Part shown: one piece after another, positions 46,071 to 64,000 of the stretch | Layout: every line of letters begins with the position of its first letter | How positions within the stretch are numbered: position 1 is the stretch's first letter | Assembly: GCA_900323505.1 (NCBI GenBank) | Contig: OOIN01000020.1 | Coordinates: 649,647-713,646 of the forward strand | Direction of reading: 5' to 3' | From: Ustilago trichophora | Taxonomy: Eukaryota > Basidiomycota > Ustilaginomycetes > Ustilaginales > Ustilaginaceae | DNA: 64,000 nt | Notes under the pieces: model-generated | What the model saw: only the letters and a program-made list of their open reading frames with translations | Databases searched by the model: none | Told to the model about the DNA's origin: nothing | Made by a program: the position numbers and the translations under genes

Positions 46071-46380
46071 GCCAGCTGTTACAGGCTCACGTGGGCTGAC
46101 CAGGGTTAGGCAAGAGTGGAGGCCAGAGGAGTGCAGCAGCGGCTGTGCGCAGAAATGGCGCACAGGCACAAAGTACTTGGCTGGCAGGTGGAGCTCACTG
46201 GACAACTTTCGGGAGGGAAATCGGCAAGTGGCATCCACCCGGCGATCCTCACGCGTTGAGTGCGAAAAGGCACCGCCAGGGACAAACGGGAGTAGTGCGG
46301 CCAATGGCGTACAGAGGAGAGGTGGCCAAGAGCTTGTCGCCATCGGGGATGGCAAGCAAGACGCTTGGGGGGAGATATGA
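45928..46380. other. Repeat-derived spacer before the LTR element
   Basis: About 450 bases with no recognisable gene. It includes a nine-base AGGGTTAGG telomere-like word (46102-46110). It ends in a G-rich purine stretch (GGGGGGAGA, 46367-46375) just before the TGTCG repeat at 46381. That resembles a polypurine tract, so part of this spacer could be the 3' internal end of another retroelement. Confidence 0.45.
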
Positions 46381-48749: not shown

Positions 48750-51700
48750 ATGCCCTGCGCTCCAGCGACCAGTTCAGGCCGCGCTTTTGCTGGTCACTTA
48801 CCAACTACTGCCTTCGTGAGCGTGGCCGGCGCCAAGCCTAGACTGTCCCTCGTCGACACAGGCTCCACACTCTCCATCATCGACGAAGAATTGGCCAACA
48901 AGTGGCATCTCAAACCGCTCAATGGGCCAGGCGTCGAGATAAACGGCATTGGTCACGATCACTCATCCGGGTTTGCCACACTGTCCTTCGGCATCCAAGG
49001 CCGCCGGGACGACAAACCAATCCGGCTGTGCTCGTCAGCCGACTTTCACGTCGTTAGGAATTTCGCCCCTGGACTCTGTCTTGGCCTCGACGTGGTCCAC
49101 TCGTCCGGCATGGTCATAGACGTCCAAGCAGGACGAGCTTGGGTCCAGAACGTCTCTTTCCCCGTCTACGACACGAGAGGAAACCCCCTGACGCCGAAGC
49201 GCATCAACAAAGCCGTGACGACGACCAAAGACACCATCATACCGCCACGTTCCCACGCATGGGTGCCTGTTTGCCACTCCATCAGCAACAACGTGCAGTA
49301 CACGCTCCACAACGCGGCCTGGCTTTCGTCCGACTCCCACGCTTGCCTAGCCCTTCCGACCGCGGTGATCGACCAGCACACCGGCCAAGTGCTCGTTACA
49401 AACTTGGCAGATCAACCTTACACCTTCTCAGCAGGATCTCCCCTTGGAGAGGCAGCGCCATTGGGACCCGACAATCTGTCAACGGGCACAGGCAGTTTCC
49501 TCATGCAAGTCAAGAATAACGACGGAGACTCACCGCACGCAGCGCCTGCCTTCCTCGCACAGAGCTCAGACGACACCTCGGCACAACCTCTTGATTTCAC
49601 CGACGACGACCTTGCTCGCCCACGTCCCCCAAGCTCGGCGACCGCCAAAGTCGATGACACCTTTGAGGTTGGCCTCGACGACACAGGCCAGCCCCACACC
49701 GCCATCGTCGAGGTTCTGCGTCGCCACGTCAACGCCTTCTCCCTAGACGGCAAACCAGGCAGGGTCACGGGCACGGCTATGAACATTCCCCTTCGTGCGG
49801 GCGACACACTCAAGCCAGAGGCCCCACGCAGAGTCAGCCCAGAGAAGAGACAGGTCATCGAGGACACGCTGGATCAGCTGGCAGACTGGGATGTCATAGA
49901 ACCGTCTACCTCCAGCGTCTCCTATCCCGTCCTGCTGGTCAGGCAGGGGCAGAAATGGAGGTTCTGTGTCGACTACCGCGGTCTGAACGCTGCCACTATC
50001 CCAGATCGGTACCCTCTGCCCCGAATTGACGACGTCTTCGAGGCCCTGGCGGGCAACAGGTACTTTTCAGGCCTGGACGCCATACGGGGTTACCATCAGA
50101 TCAACATTGCACCCGAAGACAGATGGAAAACCGCGTTTGTTTGTCATAAGGGCCTCTTCCAATACAAGCACATTCCCTTCGGCCTAACCAATGCGCCCTC
50201 ATTTTTCCAGCGCTTCATGGATCGTCTCTTAGGCAGCATGCGATGGACAGAGGCACTGGTCTACCTAGACGACGTTGTGATCTTCTCACAGACGCTAGAC
50301 CAACACGCTCGGTCATTGGAAAAGCTCCTCTCGGCCGCCACAAGCGTTGGACTAAGGTTCTCTCCGAAGAAGTGCCACTTCGCCATCTCCTCCCTCGACC
50401 TGCTTGGCCGACACGTCTCCACTGATGGCATCTCGGTCCTGCAAGATCGCGTTACAGCTGTAACGGCCATAGCACCTCCGCAGACGCTCCAACAGCTGTA
50501 CCACGTCCTAGGCCTGTTCAACTACTACCGCGACTTCATACCTGGATATGCGATCAAAGCGGCGCCGCTGACAGCACTCCTAAAAGGACATAGGTACAAG
50601 AAGTTCGGCGACAAGTGGTACCTCGTCGACAACAACGACCTGAAGACATCAGCCTCGCAAGTCAAGCTGGCGTGGTCGGCGGAACACGACGAAGCCCTGA
50701 ACTCGCTCAAGGCAGCTCTCACCACACCCCCCACGCTAGCATACCCGGACTATTCGCGACCGTTCTACCTCTACATCGACGCTTCCGGCCAAGCCTTTGC
50801 CGCCGCTCTTCATCAACGACTTCCCCCGCCACGCCTTGTAACAACGCAGTGTCTCACAGCATCTCCACAAGATGACACGCTTGACCGCCAGCGCAAAGAC
50901 CCACTGCTGAAGAATGTCATTGCCACCTTAGAAAAGGGAGAAACAAGAGCAGGTTACGAATTGCAGGACAAAGCCCTAGTCTACGTGGGCCCGAAACGCA
51001 TGATGCGCCAGTTCTGCGTTCCAGCGAGCGAACTCAAAGAACTCTTCGAGAAGCACCACGACAAGGTCCACTTTGGCTTCGCCAAGACACACGAGAGCCT
51101 GCGACAATACCACCACCCTCGACTGGCCGCTCAGCTACAAGCCTATATCGACAACTGCCCTACTTGCCTTAGGACAAAACTGGACCGCCGCACCGGCAAG
51201 TACAGCACGGAGCGTACCGTGGAGGCCTCCTACCCATTTCACACTATCTCTATGGACGTCATCCTAGGACTTCCGGAGTGTGAAGGGTACGACGCTGCAC
51301 TCGTGGTCATGGACCTGTTCTCACGCATGCTCGTTACACGAGCATGCACCTCTCGAGCCACGGCAGCCGACTTGTACAAGATGCTCACAGAGATGGTCCT
51401 CCAACGTGGTTTCACGCCCAAGGTCATCGTTTTGGACTCAGATGCTCGTTTCATCGGACAAGTGGGCAAGAGGTTCGCTGAGTCCATTGGCGCCGAGCTA
51501 CAGCCATCTGCTCCCTACCATCAGCAGGCAAACCCAGTAGAGCGACACATCCAAACGCTCAACAGGGTCCTCCGAGCCCTGGCTCTAGACCACCCCGAGG
51601 ACTGGCCAACCTACCTACCTGCGGCCGAGCTCGCAATCAACCAGACACCGTCTGTGGCCACAGGCGAAGCGCCTTTTGATTTGGTGTACATCACCAAAGT

Positions 51701-56710: not shown

Positions 56711-57360
56711 GGTTGGAGAGGTTGATCCATCCTCAACAGGGGCTGTTCAAGCTTGGCCACTCTAGGGTAGATCACTCAGGGGTTGAAAATGACAGCTCAA
56801 GCTTGTATGTACAGGGCCTGGAGGAAAAACCCAGTGGGAAAAAGTGCTCCAAGGCAGAGATCAGGAGACTAGGTGGAAGAGTTCACAAGGTTGAGGAGCC
56901 CTTCAAGCTCTGTGTCCAGGAAGAGCAAGGTCTGCCTGAGCTGAGGATCAGAGATGAAGCTGTGGATCTGGCGCAACCTGTCAAAGGCTTGCCACAGGGG
57001 AGGAGGAAGAGACTCTCTACCATCCTCACTTCCCATCCTTACCTGAGGTTGTTCAACCTCTTCAACCTCACCATGCTGTGAAATTCTAGCCCTCTTGTGC
57101 TTGCTACTGCTGACTGAGCTAGGTTCAGTGGATGGAGGGTTGACTTGAACCTCAGAGGTTGGATGGGTCCTAGGTTGGTCCTTGCTGAGAGCTTGGTGAG
57201 GTTGATGAGGTTGCTTCTTCCTTGGAGCTGCTTTGGAACTGGCATCCTTGGAGGTTGTCTTGGCTGAAGAGAAGGGAGGCAGCTCCTGCAAAGGTTCCTT
57301 TACCACTCTACAAGGTCCATACTCTAGCCCTAGGCCGTGGTGCGCCAGCCGCGGGAGAAG
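56711..57360. other. Subtelomeric segment with a possible minus-strand frame
   Basis: The minus-strand frame 56869-57363 (164 codons, no ATG start) encodes a basic stretch (SSSKHKRARISQ) and a plausible helix (LWQAFDRLRQIHSFISDPQLRQTLLFLDTELEGLLNLV). It might be a decayed exon. CAACCTCA repeats overlap it, and I recognise no family. Confidence 0.25.
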
Positions 57361-58200
57361 CACCAGTCCGTCCCGCCAAAATGGCCAACCTGACCGCGCT
57401 CCGTCAGACTGAGGGACGCGTCAAAAAACACTGGTGCAGTGCCGCAACGGAAAATTCTTTTTCCTTGGCTGGGCAGCGGACAGGTGGGTGACGGACGCGT
57501 CAAAATTCAGGGAAATTGCTAGCGTGACAGACACGCTCACCCACACTGCTCTAGTGCCTGACAGACCAATCCAACTTTTTGGCTGAGCGGCCCACTCCTC
57601 CAGCAGACTCACTGAGCTGTCTGTCACTTCACTGACTGGCAGACAGGATGAGTGACGGACATGACTGACTGACTGACAAGCTTGGTGACGTGACAGACGT
57701 GACTGACTGGCAGACGTGATTGAGGAAGTGATTCCTGCTGCAAGCACACACAGCAGTCAGGTGTGTAACGGCAACCAATGTGTACCCATGGACTGCAGCA
57801 GACGGACAAGGCTCAAATGTCAACACTGACGGACAATGTCAAAAAATATGTCTGCCAAAAATCTGATCAGAATGCTGGCCTCAAAATTGAGAGCGCAATG
57901 TGTCCTTGGAGCAAGGAGCGTGACGTGTCTGGGCATGAGTAGACAGATTCTCATTGCACCGCGCACAATTTGACTCTGCGCTGACTGACTGACAGATGCG
58001 TCAAATTTCAGTAATTTCATCTTGGCAGCGTGTACATCCTTCAACAGCACTCTGAACAGTGGCTGGTCCGTCAAGTCATGGCTCCTTTGTCTGGAAGCGT
58101 GTGAAGGACAATGTTGAGACAACAGTCAATGACTCTCACGACTGGAACCAACAAAGCTAACTCAGATGCTCCCAAGTGCGGACCTTTGCTTTGAGTGAGC
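57361..58200. repeat. Subtelomeric TGAC/GACAGAC-rich degenerate repeats
   Basis: Many copies of TGACTGAC, GTGACAGACG and CTGGCAGAC (densest at 57480-57730 and 57980-58010), and TTTGTCTG inverted forms from 58245 to 58390. No coding frame is convincing. Confidence 0.5.
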
Positions 58201-58753
58201 TTTGTGTTTGACAGACAGATTTTCTCACAGCTTGACTTTGACGTACTTGTCCTTTGTCCGCCATGCACCCACATGCTTGTCTGTCCTTCACACGCTGTAC
58301 ACCTTTGTCTGTTGTCCATTGTCTGTTGTCCATCACACACCACACATCTTTGTCTGCTTGTTGCTCACCACACAGCTTTGTCTGTCCGTCACTGAAACAA
58401 AATTTTCCACACCGCTCACAGCTCTGCACTATCCTTTCTTGTCTTGATTGCTTTACGGTGTGTGTCTGCATGAGTGTGAGCGCAAGTGAAACCATCTTAC
58501 CTTTGTACGTTTCCCTCTTGGACACATTGTGTGCTTCAAGTGGCTGTTGCTGTAACCCGTTACGCTTGCTGGAATCCTTGACAGTGTACATCTGACTGTG
58601 CTTGCTATGTGCGCTGCTTGTCTCCTCTGAAGCATATATACTGTGCCTTTCTGACCGTTGCTGACCGTCATTGCTCATCAATCCAACAATCCATTCCAGC
58701 TTCTCTCTACCGTACTCTACCACTTTTATCCACCGCCAGCAAATTCTTCAACC
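58201..58753 (+). promoter_or_regulatory. Upstream region and TATA element of the telomere-linked helicase
   Basis: TTTGTCTG/GTCCAT repeats run to about 58390, then a less repetitive leader. A CATATATA element lies at 58633-58640, about 115 bases before the modelled ATG at 58754. Confidence 0.4.
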
Positions 58754-61700
58754 ATGTCTCAGCAATCTTTCCATCCTGATGACAGCATACTTGCTGCTGA
58801 ACTTGTTGATGCAGGCATCAACACAATGGACGCAGTCAGTGATACGGACAGGTATGTTTGGGCAATCATCACCACACATCATCAATGATCAGCAGCTGAC
58901 ATCACTATTTGCATTTTTTGAATTCAGTCACGCTCTCCCTGCTGCCAACCAAGCCGCAAATCAAGAAACCACCATTTCCACTCCAGTGGATCCTCAGCAC
59001 ACCGCTCAGCTGGCACGCTTCAACTTACGCTTGGTGGACCATCCCCGCATCCTGCTCTGCACCCTGGACAGCTGTTGTCCTCAATTGCCGCTCATCCCAG
59101 ACTTCAAGCACGTCACGGCTCACATCAAGAAGGTCCACAAGAAGCCACTGGTTGGGTCTGCCAAGGAGATGCTGCGTAGCCTCCTTGATGAACTGGATGT
59201 ACCATCTCCTGGCACGGTCTGCATCAACAAGGATCTTCTGCCAGAGCGCATGATTCCTGAGCTGGGTGAGCTCTTCCAAGGCTACCGCTGCAACTTGTGC
59301 TCCTATGCCGTCCAAGCCAAGTCTGCTTTCTACGAGCATCTGCGTGGGCATCCTGATGCTAAAGGCAGAGCATCATACACCCATCCTGTTCCCATGCAGA
59401 AGTTGCACAAGTGCGGCAAGAAGATCCGCTACCTTCACGTCCGCAATCAAGATCTGGATCCCACACCGCCTCCTGCCATTCTCACCACCGCTCTGGATGC
59501 CAGCACCATCAGCGCCAATATCAAGACAAAGGTGGATGCCTTCCTCAAGAAGAATGAAGATTGCCTCTGTGAAGCAGACCTGCTCAAGCCAGGCATTCAG
59601 CCTGAATCTGCCAGCGGCAACATTGGTCCTTGGGCCAAGCAGCTGGGTTGGCATGCGTACTGGGCTGGCAAGCCTATTGTGGCCATCGGCGCACTCAGCA
59701 AGTCAAAAAAGGTGTGGCCTGGTGCTCATATAGACTTTGTCCATTGGGTATTGGTCATGACACAGCAAGCAGCCGCAACATGGATGATGGCTTTCCTCAA
59801 GACTGGCAGGCAGGTGCAACAGACTTTCCGTGCCTACAGTCCTGAACCAAGCCAGCCGTACAACCTCAGCCTACCAACAGTCAAGAAACGTGCGGACATG
59901 TGGGCCTTTTTACTTGCTCTGCTTATCCATGCGGTCTTTGACGGTGTCTCTTTTGGTTATTACGGTGACAGTGACCAGACTGAGCATCTTGGTCTCAGCG
60001 CACACCTGGACTCTGTACTGCAAGATCTGCATGATCTTTACTACGGTGCAGATGCAGACATTGATCCGCTCACTGATGAAGATCTGGCAAGCAAGGCAGT
60101 GCCGCTCCTCCTCCAACTCTCTCACCTCTTGGTCACGCAACAGCCAGAGGTGTATGGTGAGAATGACAAGCTTGCTTTGGTACGGCTGTTCCTCCACCTC
60201 TGCGTCAGCGCAGATGGCACTCCCATTCCCGTCAATGCCGCTACGTCCATCATTGCCAGCTTGGAGTTCTGCTGCTGTGCAGTGCTCTGGCAGTGGCTGT
60301 TGGATCCAGAAGATGGTGTGCTCATTGAGCGCTCTGCTGAGGAGATTGCTGCCGAGGTTGATCTACAGATGAAGCGCTATCTGTACAGCACCAGCAGCTC
60401 CGCCAGCTCATACCTACAATCCCTTCACCGGTATGGCACAGTACTTGCGCAAGATGATGGCACCAACTTCCACTTTTCCTGGCAGCAAGATCTCAAGAGC
60501 GTCAAGTTTGGAACAGAGACCATCCAAGTGGACCGTCTCCAAGCTCTGATGCATGGTGCGCAAAAGCGGGCAGAAGCTTTGCTACGTCAGCTCTGCCTTT
60601 TGCCAGAGGATGCATCACTTGCGCTCAACCTGAAGCACATTCTGGATGATCACCGCAACATGCAACCAGACTTCAGCTTTGTGGCCGCTTCTCCGGAGCT
60701 GCAGAGCATCAGCAGTGTTCTCTGCCGTGCTGCTGCTGGTAATGTACCTGCCGCACAACCCCTCATGGATCCATACTCTGATGAGTTGGAGTTCGATGCA
60801 GATGCTGCCAATGCGTACTTCAGCATGCACAATGAATTCACCAAGCTGCTTGCGGTGCTCATTGAGCTTGGTAGCGGTCTGCCTGCAAGAGGTACAGAGC
60901 TGCTCCAATTGCAGCACACCAACACGCTTGTTGGTCCACGCAACCTCTTTGTGCATGATGGCAGTGTCTTCACCGCTCTGCCCAGCAAGAAAGGCACTGG
61001 ACGTCAAAAGGTGATTCCACGCTTCCTGCCATACCCAGTGGGATGCATGGTGGTCTTTTACGTAGCTCAGGTGGTGCCGTTTGTCCATCTCCTACATAAT
61101 GCAGTGCTGCAGCCCCGTGCGGCCAGCTCTATGCTTTTGGTGGACCATCACGGCAATGCATGGGAGACAAATGCCGTCACCAAGATGCTGCAAGCACTCT
61201 GCCAGGAGCACATCAGCTCTATCACGGCTGGCCTCAACATGCGCACTTGGCGGCAACTGGCAGTGAGCATTGACCGCAAGCTCATCCGTCCGAGGTCCAT
61301 GACTGCAGAAGAGGTGTTGGACAGCGCTCACGATCTTCAAGCTGGACATTCAACACGGACTGCAGAGCAGCACTATGGCCTGGATGCAAGCATGCTGCAT
61401 CAGCTCACGCAAGAGAGCATGGATGTCATGTTGGAAGTGTCAGAGCGGTGGCATGCATTCTGGGGTATGCCATCCCGCTTTGAAGAGGACGTCAAGCCAT
61501 ATGACCACCTCATGGCAGGAAAGGCAGCAGGAGATGACTGCAAGGCAGTATCTTCACTGAAGCGGCAGCTGGATGCTTTGCAGGAGGACATGCGGTGTGT
61601 CAAGCAAAGGCTGGAGCATCCAATTGAAGTTGCTCCACCAAGCGCTACAAGTGCGGTGCCTGCTGCCCCCATTTCACGCTCTGCTGTGCTAGCAGAACCA

Positions 61701-63743
61701 GTCAGCAATGCACTCTTCAAGGTGACCGGCAGCCACCGCACCAAGACACTGGAGCAGGCCTATGCGCTCAATGCCATCTATGCCAAGGAGACACCACTGA
61801 TCATTGTCATGGCCACTGGGTCCGGCAAGTCTGCACTTTTCATGGCACCGCTGCATTGGCTGCCGCCAGCCTCTGTCATTATTGTGGTGGTGCCATTCAT
61901 TGCACTCACAGATGATCTGATGGAGCAGTGTCAGTGGGTTGGAATTGTGGCAAGCAAGTGGACAGGCTACCGGAGTGCAGACAGAGTAGAGGGCAGTCAG
62001 CTGGTCTTTGTTGCAGCAGAGAACTGCTACAGTCAAGCATTTGCCAACTGGGCGCAAGAGTTGGATCAGCAGAAGCGGTTGGCAGCCATCTTCTTTGATG
62101 AGTGCCATGTCTGCGTAACTCAAAACACCTTCCGTCCGGCAATGGAGAAGATCAAGGCACTCATCTCTGCTGTGCGGGTGCAGCAGTACTTCCTTACGGC
62201 TACGCTGCCACCAACTCTGGTTCCCACCTTCAAGACCACACTCTGTCTCCCGCAAGATGGTACTGGCATGATCAGGGCGGCCACCAACCGCAAAAACATC
62301 TCCTACAAGGTCCAGCAACTTACATCAAGTGTGGAAATGCCATTCCAAATCAAGCGTCTCCTTGAAGCTCACCCTGCCGGTGCAGTGATGATCTTCTGCA
62401 AGTCCACCACTGCAGCACAAACCACAGCGGAGGATCTCAATTGCACTTGCGTGATCGCAGACATGCCAGAGGAGCAGAAGCAGAGAACGGTTTCAACATG
62501 GTTGCGGTGTTCTGCCACAGAGACCAACACTGGCAAACGCGTCATTGTTGGAACAACAGCTATCGGCACAGGCATCAATCCGCAACATGTCAGTCTGGTG
62601 GTCCATTGCGGTGATACATGGGACATGGTCAGTTACGTGCAAGAGTCAGGACGCGCTGGACGTAGTGGCAGTGGAGCATCAGCGGTGCTGTTGGCCACCA
62701 GAGTCCAAACACGTGAAGCACAGGTGCAGCTCTACATAGAGGAGCGTACTTGCCGGCGTCTGGCCATCTCACGCTATCTGGACGGAATGCCGGTGACTTG
62801 CCTCAGCCAGCCAGACTTTGCGCTGTGCGACCTCTGCCAGCAGCGTGTGGAAGGACCAGTCACACCGCCAAAGAAGATCATTGGCTTGGAGTCACCGCCA
62901 GAGTCTGACAAGCGTGAGCGGCAGCAGAATGGCAAGACCCAGACTGCTGGTCAACTCCAAGCTGCAAACAGCAGCAGTAGGCGGTTGCAAGTCAGCACCA
63001 CGGCCTTGGATTCACCTACACCACGTCAGCGGCAGCATCAAGGTTTTACGGCAGCTCTAGACCTGAACCATCAGCACTCAGCAAGCAGAGGAGCGCCAAA
63101 CCAGATATTATCCTCCACTGCTCAAAACCAGCTTCAGCCAGCATTGCCGGTTCTCAGTTTTACGCCTCCGCCATTTGCATTCAGCCTAAGTCCATCACCG
63201 GCACATCCACCTGTGCACATTGACATTGACACATCAAGCAGCAGATTGCTACTGCAGAGCCTTGCCGGTGTGTGCTCTTTGTGTTACCTCTTCCGCAACC
63301 AGCACACATGCTCTGGACAACATGGAATCCGACACTCTTTCAGCAACTGCAACTGCTGGCCGCAAATCAAGGACAAGTTGCCACAATCAGAGCCACGCAT
63401 CAATGCAACCTACATTGGCGGCCTCAAGCGCCGCATGCAGAAAGCAAAGCACATTGCTTGTTACGCATGTCTGGTTCCCATCAACATTTGCGCCAACACC
63501 AGCTCAACCAATTCTACAGCATGCTCACGCAGGTATGCTGACATTGTGCTGCCCGTAGTTGCGGCAGTGCTCAGATGCAGAGAGCACACTGCCAATGTGC
63601 TGCGGTTGATTGGCTTGGATCAGATGGACCCACATGCGGTAGTGGTACAAGGTGAGCTAGGTACAGCCGTGACCTACAAAGGTGAGAGTATGCTTCTGGC
63701 ATTTGCCATGTTTGCAGCGGCTGTAGAAGCAGCGGCTATGTAG
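58754..63743 (+). CDS. Telomere-linked RecQ-type helicase with zinc fingers and recombinase-like domain
   Basis: Modelled as join(58754..58851,58928..63743), 1637 residues. The 76-base intron (GTATGT...TTCAG) joins MSQQSFHPDD... to HALPAANQ. Without splicing the frame would need an unrelated leader. Zinc-binding candidates are C77-x4-C82-x15-H98-x4-H103 and a classic C2H2 finger C154, C157, H170, H174. The middle carries tyrosine-recombinase hallmarks: R687, K720/K721, R808, H840, Y849. The RecQ-like core has ATGSGKS (Lys1000), DECH (1090-1093), TAT and QESGRAGRSG (from 1271). A Pro/Gln/Ser-rich linker and a Cys/His-rich C-terminus (CSLCYLFRNQHTC...) follow. Family members sit at chromosome ends in fungi and may help maintain or spread telomere-adjacent DNA. 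The frame is intact, so the gene may be functional. Confidence 0.88.
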
Positions 63744-63825
63744 ATAGAAGACTTTGCATGTTTCTCAAAATAAATCATTAATTGCATTTCCAGAGTCTGT
63801 GAAAATGCAGACAAAGTGGAGGCCT
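63744..63825. other. Spacer between helicase gene and telomere
   Basis: 82 bases with an AAATAAATCATTAATT stretch suited to a 3' end or polyadenylation signal. It leads directly into the telomere array. Confidence 0.5.
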
Positions 63826-64000
63826 TTAGGGTTAGGGTTAGGGTTAGGGTTAGGGTTAGGGTTAGGGTTAGGGTTAGGGTTAGGGTTAGGGTTAGGGTTA
63901 GGGTTAGGGTTAGGGTTAGGGTTAGGGTTAGGGTTAGGGTTAGGGTTAGGGTTAGGGTTAGGGTTAGGGTTAGGGTTAGGGTTAGGGTTAGGGTTAGGGT
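63826..64000 (+). repeat. Telomere, (TTAGGG)29
   Basis: Perfect TTAGGG units run from 63826 to the window edge (29 complete repeats plus one base). The G-rich strand runs toward the right, so the window ends at a right chromosome end. Confidence 0.98.

Follow-up and report, generated by a model that had tools for sequence, protein, structure and literature searches.

Fungal telomere-linked helicases are usually taken as host genes for telomere upkeep, at least in the accessible portions of the papers that discuss them (PMC4522978, PMC10532341, PMC7593156). One such gene closes a 64,000-nucleotide stretch of Ustilago trichophora DNA (contig OOIN01000020.1, forward strand, positions 649,647 to 713,646; hereafter the window), and it raises the question of whether it is instead part of a mobile element that lives at the chromosome end. 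An initial annotation had pointed to residues in the encoded protein that resemble the catalytic set of a tyrosine recombinase, and this observation is confirmed. We put at about 50% the probability that the gene belongs to a mobile element of chromosome ends, whose recombinase-like domain cuts and joins the element's left terminus at CCT sites. In the window this element measures 6.5 kb (57324..63825, + strand), with a fixed left border common to other copies and a right part removed by the telomere, which follows at 63826..64000 (+) as 29 TTAGGG units.

The helicase gene (58754..63743, +) consists of a short first exon, with its ATG at about 58754, and a long frame. That frame is open on the + strand from 58665 to 63743, has 1690 codons counted from a TTG at 58671, and corresponds in homologue searches to UTRI_00931 of U. 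trichophora (P0001; 100% over the queried part). UTRI_00931 is 1637 amino acids long and begins in the upstream exon; because the initial annotation numbered residues along it, 53 is added to those numbers to give the uninterrupted-frame numbers used here. Pfam models identify the helicase core (61752..62669, +) as DEAD (61752-62216, E 3.4e-14) and Helicase_C (62349-62669, E 1.2e-14). With an SF2/RecQ-like helicase, multiple copies and a stop codon 82 bp from the telomere, this is a telomere-linked helicase gene. No Pfam match to OrsD was found in the window protein; an N-terminal OrsD domain passes the cut-off of 26.6 bits in two of five relatives scanned (P0006, 27.0 bits; P0017, 55.9 bits), and P0014 falls just under it at 25.6 bits. 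Residues 480-960 of the window protein match no Pfam family, and it is this part (60108..61550, +) that aligns with tyrosine recombinases.

Four segments ahead of the helicase core had been singled out: ARGTELLQL, SKKGTGRQKVIPRF, RTWRQLAVSI and AGHSTRTAEQHYG. They begin at 60885, 60984, 61242 and 61341, as claimed, and the span assigned to the signature, 60888..61376, is exact, running from the first base of the R740 codon to the last base of the Y902 codon. We followed these positions through 141 homologues gathered in three overlapping searches (17 proteins, the best 120 of 316, and 7), each of which scored at most 8000 candidates. The alignment holds the window copy and 140 of the 141 homologues, one having been dropped by a 250-900-residue length filter; P0001 is the window's own protein. 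Its rows span Basidiomycota and Ascomycota. Since resemblance to this domain was what brought the homologues together, the set is biased towards conservation overall, though not specifically at the positions examined here. The domain is not confined to smuts: a query with an ascomycete relative returned 316 proteins, and among the best 120 of these most are OrsD and/or helicase proteins, those named being from ascomycetes.

Across these rows R, K, R and Y are retained in order, and both histidines are loose. The box I arginine, R740 (R687 in the earlier numbering; 60888..60890, +), is arginine in 140 of 140 rows, with a gap in P0015; the adjacent G741 is invariant, and E743 is glutamate in 140 of 140. 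The hairpin lysine K774 (earlier K721; 60990..60992, +) and the putative nucleophile Y902 (earlier Y849; 61374..61376, +) are without variation in all 141 rows. Of the lysine pair K720/K721 proposed initially, then, the second stands and the first does not, position 773 being histidine in 117 rows. Within RTWR (61242..61253, +) the box II arginine, R861, is kept in 138 of 141 rows and replaced by histidine in P0008, P0012 and P0015. R858 occupies the place of the HxxR histidine, a position that is leucine in 89 rows, histidine in 32, arginine in 15, glutamine in 3 and methionine in 2. At the H/W position, H893 (earlier H840; 61347..61349, +) lies nine residues before Y902, the same spacing as between H270 and Y279 of XerD; this position is arginine in 119 of 141 rows and histidine in 22, smuts among them. 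It was thus not accurate to say that the first histidine of HxxR is the only catalytic residue changed, since position 893 departs too, and the predicted conservation, which holds for R, K, R and Y, is only partial for the histidine. In thirty rows R, K, R and Y are accompanied by histidine at 858; P0004, P0005 and P0017 alone among the thirty have it at 893 too. Proteins and copies that lack R861 (P0008, P0012, P0015, and the copy at locus L027) have histidine or glutamine there, as C-to-T decay at CG would give, and may be decaying.

When 16 representatives of less than 60% identity are compared, only nine of 236 usable columns show no variation, and R740 (one row gapped), K774 and Y902 are all included; R861 ranks 15th in conservation and H893 49th. 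By simple arithmetic, three random columns would all fall within the nine with a chance of about 4e-5. We therefore rejected a chance motif, against which both this conservation and the unguided profile alignment described below speak. The region is also constrained in comparison with L027, a copy of 90% protein identity over 982 codons: the ratio of nonsynonymous to synonymous substitution rates (dN/dS) falls from 0.204 in the N-terminal part to 0.072 across residues 480-960 and to 0.038 in the catalytic core, residues 700-945 (60768-61505, +), where 7 nonsynonymous differences stand beside 44 synonymous ones. The core is strongly conserved in this one comparison, with a diverged copy that is cut by a telomere and has one stop.

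We next compared the domain with known recombinases. Nine of eleven domain representatives were aligned (A3; P0140 and P0141, which have long inserts, were omitted). The domain was compared with a set of 32 tyrosine recombinases, found with XerD-seeded profiles in loci of eight genomes that the Pfam integrase model had picked out, and supplemented with XerD and lambda integrase; 80 loci kept from a lambda integrase scan were 99% identical and were excluded. Unguided HHalign in its default local mode aligned 102 columns (P 7.6e-4, probability 25%) and paired R740 (in RGTE), K774 and R861 with R148, K172 and R247 of XerD. A global run extended the alignment to AGHSTRTAEQHYG against LGHSDLSTTQIYTH, placing H893 and Y902 on H270 and Y279. 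This match in register is suggestive, short of proof. Conservation shows that the middle of the protein keeps R, K, R and Y; that it folds as a tyrosine-recombinase-like domain we infer.

Several results weigh against this assignment and against a working recombinase. As described above, most rows lack the HxxR histidine and most have arginine at position 893; L027 itself carries R861Q. One of four HHalign option sets, that without realignment, leaves K774 unpaired with K172. Once gap-rich columns were removed, the local score was 22.4 (probability 3%, E 0.013) and the global probability 0.06%. In this gap-filtered control scores of 13-15 were reached by the reversed profile and by two further regions of the protein, one of 300 column shuffles scored above the real value (26.0), and the best shuffle probability was 9%. 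A profile search of the Protein Data Bank (PDB) with the domain only found no chain at E up to 10, Pfam found no integrase family in nine representatives (its sole match was one weak F-box), and a narrow profile built from XerD's close relatives yielded no noteworthy alignment. Fourteen pattern matches in viral contigs included no relative. Selection among the 22 full-length copies is uninformative, since the numbers are too small: 22 synonymous and 35 nonsynonymous changes, the latter possibly including a stop in L021, with a ratio of nonsynonymous to synonymous polymorphism (pN/pS) of 0.49. Among the same copies the helicase C-terminal part (residues 1401-1690; 62871-63740) differs from the rest in having 7 nonsynonymous changes to 1 synonymous, small counts that again may include the L021 stop.

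The recombinase interpretation is thus partly supported, weakly by a profile alignment in register, with no match in the Pfam and PDB profile searches. Those missing matches, the weak HHalign probability and the shuffle that exceeded the real score are what one would expect if the likeness were convergent or fortuitous, that is, if an unrelated domain of the OrsD-helicase family held R, K, R and Y for other reasons. We consider this very improbable: the order of the residues, the R-x-x-E of box I, the lysine hairpin, the R-H/Q of box II, the nine-residue spacing from H to Y and the invariance of the positions all agree, and the unguided profile alignment lands on the same residues.

The copies in the genome give the element a defined end. 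At least 28 protein matches are present, 22 of them full length and 21 of these without a stop, and all 28 lie near contig ends; the count is a lower bound, with 28 of 68 candidates scored in a genome of 45 contigs. A related query adds three subfamily places, on contigs C12, C10 and C43. Pairwise homology upstream of the gene mostly stops about 1340-1380 bp before the TTG in one class of copies and 1409-1418 bp before it in another. Between classes it stops at about 280 bp, and despite this both have an identical border by sequence. Exceptions are L005, where homology with some copies stops at 688-695 bp, and L026, where it stops at about 540 bp; homology continues beyond the border in the pairs L006/L024 and L021/L022. 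The border reads CTAGCCCTAGGC (window 57324) followed by a common GC-rich sequence, and its terminus, CTAGCCCTAGG (57324..57334, +), is the sole match in the window with one mismatch allowed. With a preceding C the terminus forms a short dyad, CCTAG-CC-CTAGG; the window copy has T before it.

This border anchor is present in 26 of the 28 loci and absent from L026 and L027, which have the terminal 13-mer, CCTAGCCCTAGGC, at C28:12201 and C35:4710. A 29-base version of the border occurs at 36 places, 17 forward and 19 reverse (backward control, none), and all 36 left ends, on 22 contigs, point to their near contig end, 572 to 14494 bp away. The 13-mer occurs at 73 places in the genome (backward control, one), 61 of them near the contig end that they point to (within 15 kb of the start or 17 kb of the end); eight others are forward on contigs with no usable end position, and four lie elsewhere. 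Copies on C10 and C43 read CTAGCCCTAGGCCGCAGGTCC and then different sequence. Because the 13-mer is found genome-wide and is common to diverged subfamilies, a larger family shares this terminus. The four 13-mers away from contig ends are at C6:1391822 and, at 70-80 kb of C43, at 70625, 77479 and 79920; the cluster on C43 may reflect an ancient fusion of ends or an assembly error. At one chromosome end three left termini lie exactly 706 bp apart (C1:806, 1512 and 2218), probably a tandem array of truncated copies.

Reading outward from the border, 38 joint rows (two places were fetched twice) reduce to 34 distinct 20-base flanks. Flanks are common to L021/L022 and to L023/L024 (inner joints), and nearly so to L006/L024, so that there are at most 33 independent joints. 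The element thus has one fixed, centromere-side end joined to mostly unrelated sequence and pointing to the contig end in every case counted, and another end that is variable and capped by a telomere where it can be read. Such sharing of neighbouring joints is what segmental duplication would give, and the 22 full-length copies, which differ from the window copy at 26 or fewer of 5070 bases, have their distal subtelomere in common; these facts would suit copies spread only by ordinary homologous recombination between subtelomeres, as for yeast Y', with the domain a relic or a DNA-binding module without chemistry. Domesticated Crypton domains (DUF3504) do persist after losing catalytic residues, according to the part of PMC3212892 available. 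We nevertheless regard this explanation as unlikely, since at 36 left ends, among which 34 distinct flanks are found, homology breaks off at one and the same terminus; moreover, R, K and Y never vary and constraint is stronger on the core than on the N-terminal part, unlike in the DUF3504 genes.

The sequence at the joints provides further clues. CTAG is preceded by C in 33 of the 34 flanks, the window copy (T) being the sole exception; the second base is C in 24, G in 8 and A in 2, the third is mixed, and a third CCCTAG unit is found in five flanks (L013, L018, L037, L040, L041). Eight joints have an element-free look-alike of their flank elsewhere, paralogous rather than allelic and found only where the flank happened to be repeated. 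These look-alikes read TTTACCC|CTAAGG for L003; TTTGACC|CTGCGC (in L005) for L009, the other listed copies having TTTGACT|CTGCGC except L041, where telomere repeats follow; AATACC|CTAGAG (in L026) for L012; GCACGCC|CTGGCG (window 54306, 93%) for L014; and, both within the helicase frame, GTAC|CTGC for L015 and CTCACC|CTGCCG for L023/L024. The left end of L023 has a look-alike with a one-base shift, GTGAGC|CTGTAAC (window near 46098, minus strand, 95%), and for the window's own joint a look-alike on C40 (87%) reads CATACCCCTTGG against CATACTCTAG in the window. CT followed by a purine falls exactly at the joint in six cases and is shifted by one base in a seventh, and in the last CCCT lies within two bases; CCT itself begins at 1.7% of positions on the + strand of the window. 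As judged from these paralogous sites, the joint is shown to lie at or beside a C-CT of the target, so that target and element end share a few bases.

On the inner side of its own joint the window has a minus-strand frame (56869..57323, -) that matches C40:309285-309901 at 87% and ends at the joint; the frame in C40 is longer and uninterrupted, and the one in the window is probably a host gene truncated by the element. The look-alikes of L014 and L023 also mean that the interior of the window shares sequence with other chromosome ends. The flank of L011, considered as a further unoccupied site by comparison with the window, was dropped, its homology ending before the joint.

The outer end behaves differently. 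The stop codon is 82 bp from the telomere in the window and about 1.0 kb from it in L008 and L019; telomere repeats begin inside the helicase frame in L025, L027 and L028, at 2.9 to 5.1 kb in five ends and at 7.8 kb in two. The sequence before the telomere is common to these copies (at least 99.6% identity over up to 3.2 kb, L029 versus the other four), and the telomere begins at varied points of it; the outer end has therefore been lost and healed at varied points. The left end is the sole fixed end, all right ends that were read being interrupted by telomere repeats. Some truncated copies have themselves received another left end: on C2 and C30 a new one stands at residue 1240 of a truncated helicase frame, on C16 one lies within another such frame and on C7 one in the upstream part. 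By locus, the copies joined inside a helicase frame are L015, L023 and L024/L028, and L009 is joined inside the upstream part. In each case a copy that had eroded would have had another added to it in the same orientation; the inner joints of C2 and C30 coincide to the base, and recombination may have spread a single event to both. In L026 (C28) five internal TTAGGG units follow the truncated frame and form an interstitial telomere that borders this truncated copy; another subtelomeric repeat comes after them.

A fixed end, a single orientation, differing flanks and further copies on truncated ones together give these sequences the appearance of mobile elements that attach to chromosome ends by one end only. 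A fixed inner end must be recognised by something. The element's own protein combines a helicase with a recombinase-like domain whose residues suit the cutting and joining of DNA, and it is plausible that this domain makes the joint. On the mechanism we favour, the domain would cut and join DNA at the left terminus and at CCT sites near chromosome ends; the piece from left terminus to telomere would be swapped or copied to a new chromosome end, replacing the old distal part; the helicase would open or extend DNA at the joint; and telomerase would cap the resulting end. This would explain together the fixed inner end, the single orientation, the missing distal flank and the variable outer end. 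The initial annotation had suggested an enzyme of an element able to move or join subtelomeric DNA; the fixed inner end and the one-ended CCT joints at many chromosome ends lend this independent support as regards the element, and we infer the part that the domain plays in the joints.

Where an element joins one-endedly at CCT and the old distal part is gone, a chromosome end would have been swapped or copied, and the joint itself leans a little to copying: it keeps the element's CTAG and not the CTG or CTAA of the target. Copying from the element end explains this no worse than reciprocal exchange does, and the observation counts against cutting and joining by the domain. Also unfavourable is that the terminus has only a 5-bp dyad and that a second att-like end was not seen in the copies read, none of which has a natural right end. 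The main rival dispenses with strand exchange by the domain. In it, the eroded 3' CCT or CCTAG of a chromosome would anneal to the left terminus of an element strand or antisense RNA and be extended by break-induced replication or by a reverse transcriptase acting in trans, with the domain only binding or nicking the terminus. The shared CCT at the joints, the retained CTAG, the third CCCTAG at 5 of 34 flanks, the variable outer end and the tandem additions are all typical of primed copying, and telomerase-less U. maydis survivors are reported with amplified telomere-associated sequences in the available part of PMC4192592. Plain break-induced replication, however, is not expected to begin at one fixed base pair and needs a defined end or nick, and no reverse transcriptase is found in the elements as far as the contigs reach: of 82 places matching RVT_1, none falls in the interval from a left end to the contig end that the left end faces, although reverse transcriptases elsewhere in the genome could supply one in trans. 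Copying primed in this way is a serious contender that we think doubtful.

Joining by the recombinase-like domain is the reading that we retain, and several other types of element were rejected. A Helitron end, suggested by the CTAG terminus and a GC-rich, partly palindromic stretch, does not fit, since the targets are C|CT and not A|T and C precedes CTAG in 33 of 34 flanks; a Pfam scan found no Rep domain, and five variants of the stretch fold differently. A retroelement of the non-long-terminal-repeat or Penelope type that encodes its own enzyme is set aside, as far as the contigs reach, by the RVT_1 result.

Other genes lie near these elements. An RVT_1 match within a 1382-residue open frame occurs in the window at 49947-50411 (+; G000 C19:699593-700057), outside the element. 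As many as three related proteins that resemble TET/JBP-type 2-oxoglutarate dioxygenases are encoded in the distal part of longer copies, and the window copy ends before them. Their frames, all outside the window, are at L029 14-1507 and 1705-2760 (+) and at L034 1961-2500 (+, minus relative to the element). The first matches PF12851 below the cut-off (E 0.0021, 17.7 bits versus 34.9), and the other two have no Pfam match; the first matches 66 places in the genome, 52 in outward parts of elements and 14 elsewhere. DNA-base oxidases travelling with telomeric elements would be notable.

Were the domain a working recombinase, and the gene the engine of an element that captures chromosome ends, the telomeric location and the near-identity of the copies would be explained and a cause of subtelomere turnover would be at hand. 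The reading makes testable predictions, since it specifies the DNA terminus, the target triplet and the tyrosine involved. Together, these comparisons suggest an unrecognised kind of mobile DNA living at chromosome tips. More tentatively, it may be a new class of eukaryotic element that has no reverse transcriptase and in which a helicase-fused tyrosine recombinase recognises a short telomere-like terminus, CCTAGCCCTAGG, and joins it one-endedly to CCT of eroding or broken ends, the old end giving way to element and telomere; the class would span Basidiomycota and Ascomycota, and many telomere-linked helicases would be transposase-like enzymes of elements that capture ends rather than host telomere genes.

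Known systems share parts of this picture. Yeast Y' is a helicase-coding subtelomeric repeat amplified at ends, and its borders carry internal telomere tracts that recombine. Here, unlike Y', the border is CCCTAG in inverted sense and 60-base flanks show only short TTAGGG relics, near L036 and L046; Y'-like spread through internal telomere tracts was rejected, borders and flanks not fitting it. HeT-A, endonuclease-deficient Penelope elements and MoTeR/FoTeR likewise have a fixed centromere-side end, a variable distal end and one orientation. Such telomere-attached retroelements encode reverse transcriptase, in contrast to the present elements between their left ends and the contig ends. Starship captains (DUF3435) are fungal tyrosine recombinases that mobilise large cargo elements; the window protein has no Pfam match to DUF3435, and a genome search was also empty, as was its control. 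In the portions of these papers available, the orientation of FoTeR is supported by PMC12857005, and Y' elements are mentioned in PMC4522978 and PMC4192592.

The closest relatives by gene content are the fungal telomere-linked or terminus-associated RecQ-like helicases, including U. maydis UTASa/UT5, S. pombe tlh1, Magnaporthe TLH and those of Agaricus bisporus var. burnettii, which are likewise multicopy SF2 helicases beside telomeres; the accessible parts of the papers on them report an OrsD domain in U. maydis UTASb and mention neither a recombinase-like domain nor a fixed end with CCT joints (PMC10532341, PMC7593156, PMC7473861). In S. scitamineum a family of 61 RecQ-related helicases, some near telomeres, is described in the available text of PMC4466345. 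Literature searches that mostly lacked subscription papers and bioRxiv found no paper linking a telomere-linked helicase with a tyrosine recombinase, and none combining C2H2, tyrosine recombinase, helicase, fungi and subtelomere. Cryptons are likewise eukaryotic mobile elements with a tyrosine recombinase, and several groups have terminal direct repeats of 4-6 bp that are thought to be recombination substrates; the word 'helicase' does not occur in the available text of that paper (PMC3212892). Cryptons are two-ended, whereas the elements described here have one fixed end, a telomere at the other, and a fused helicase.

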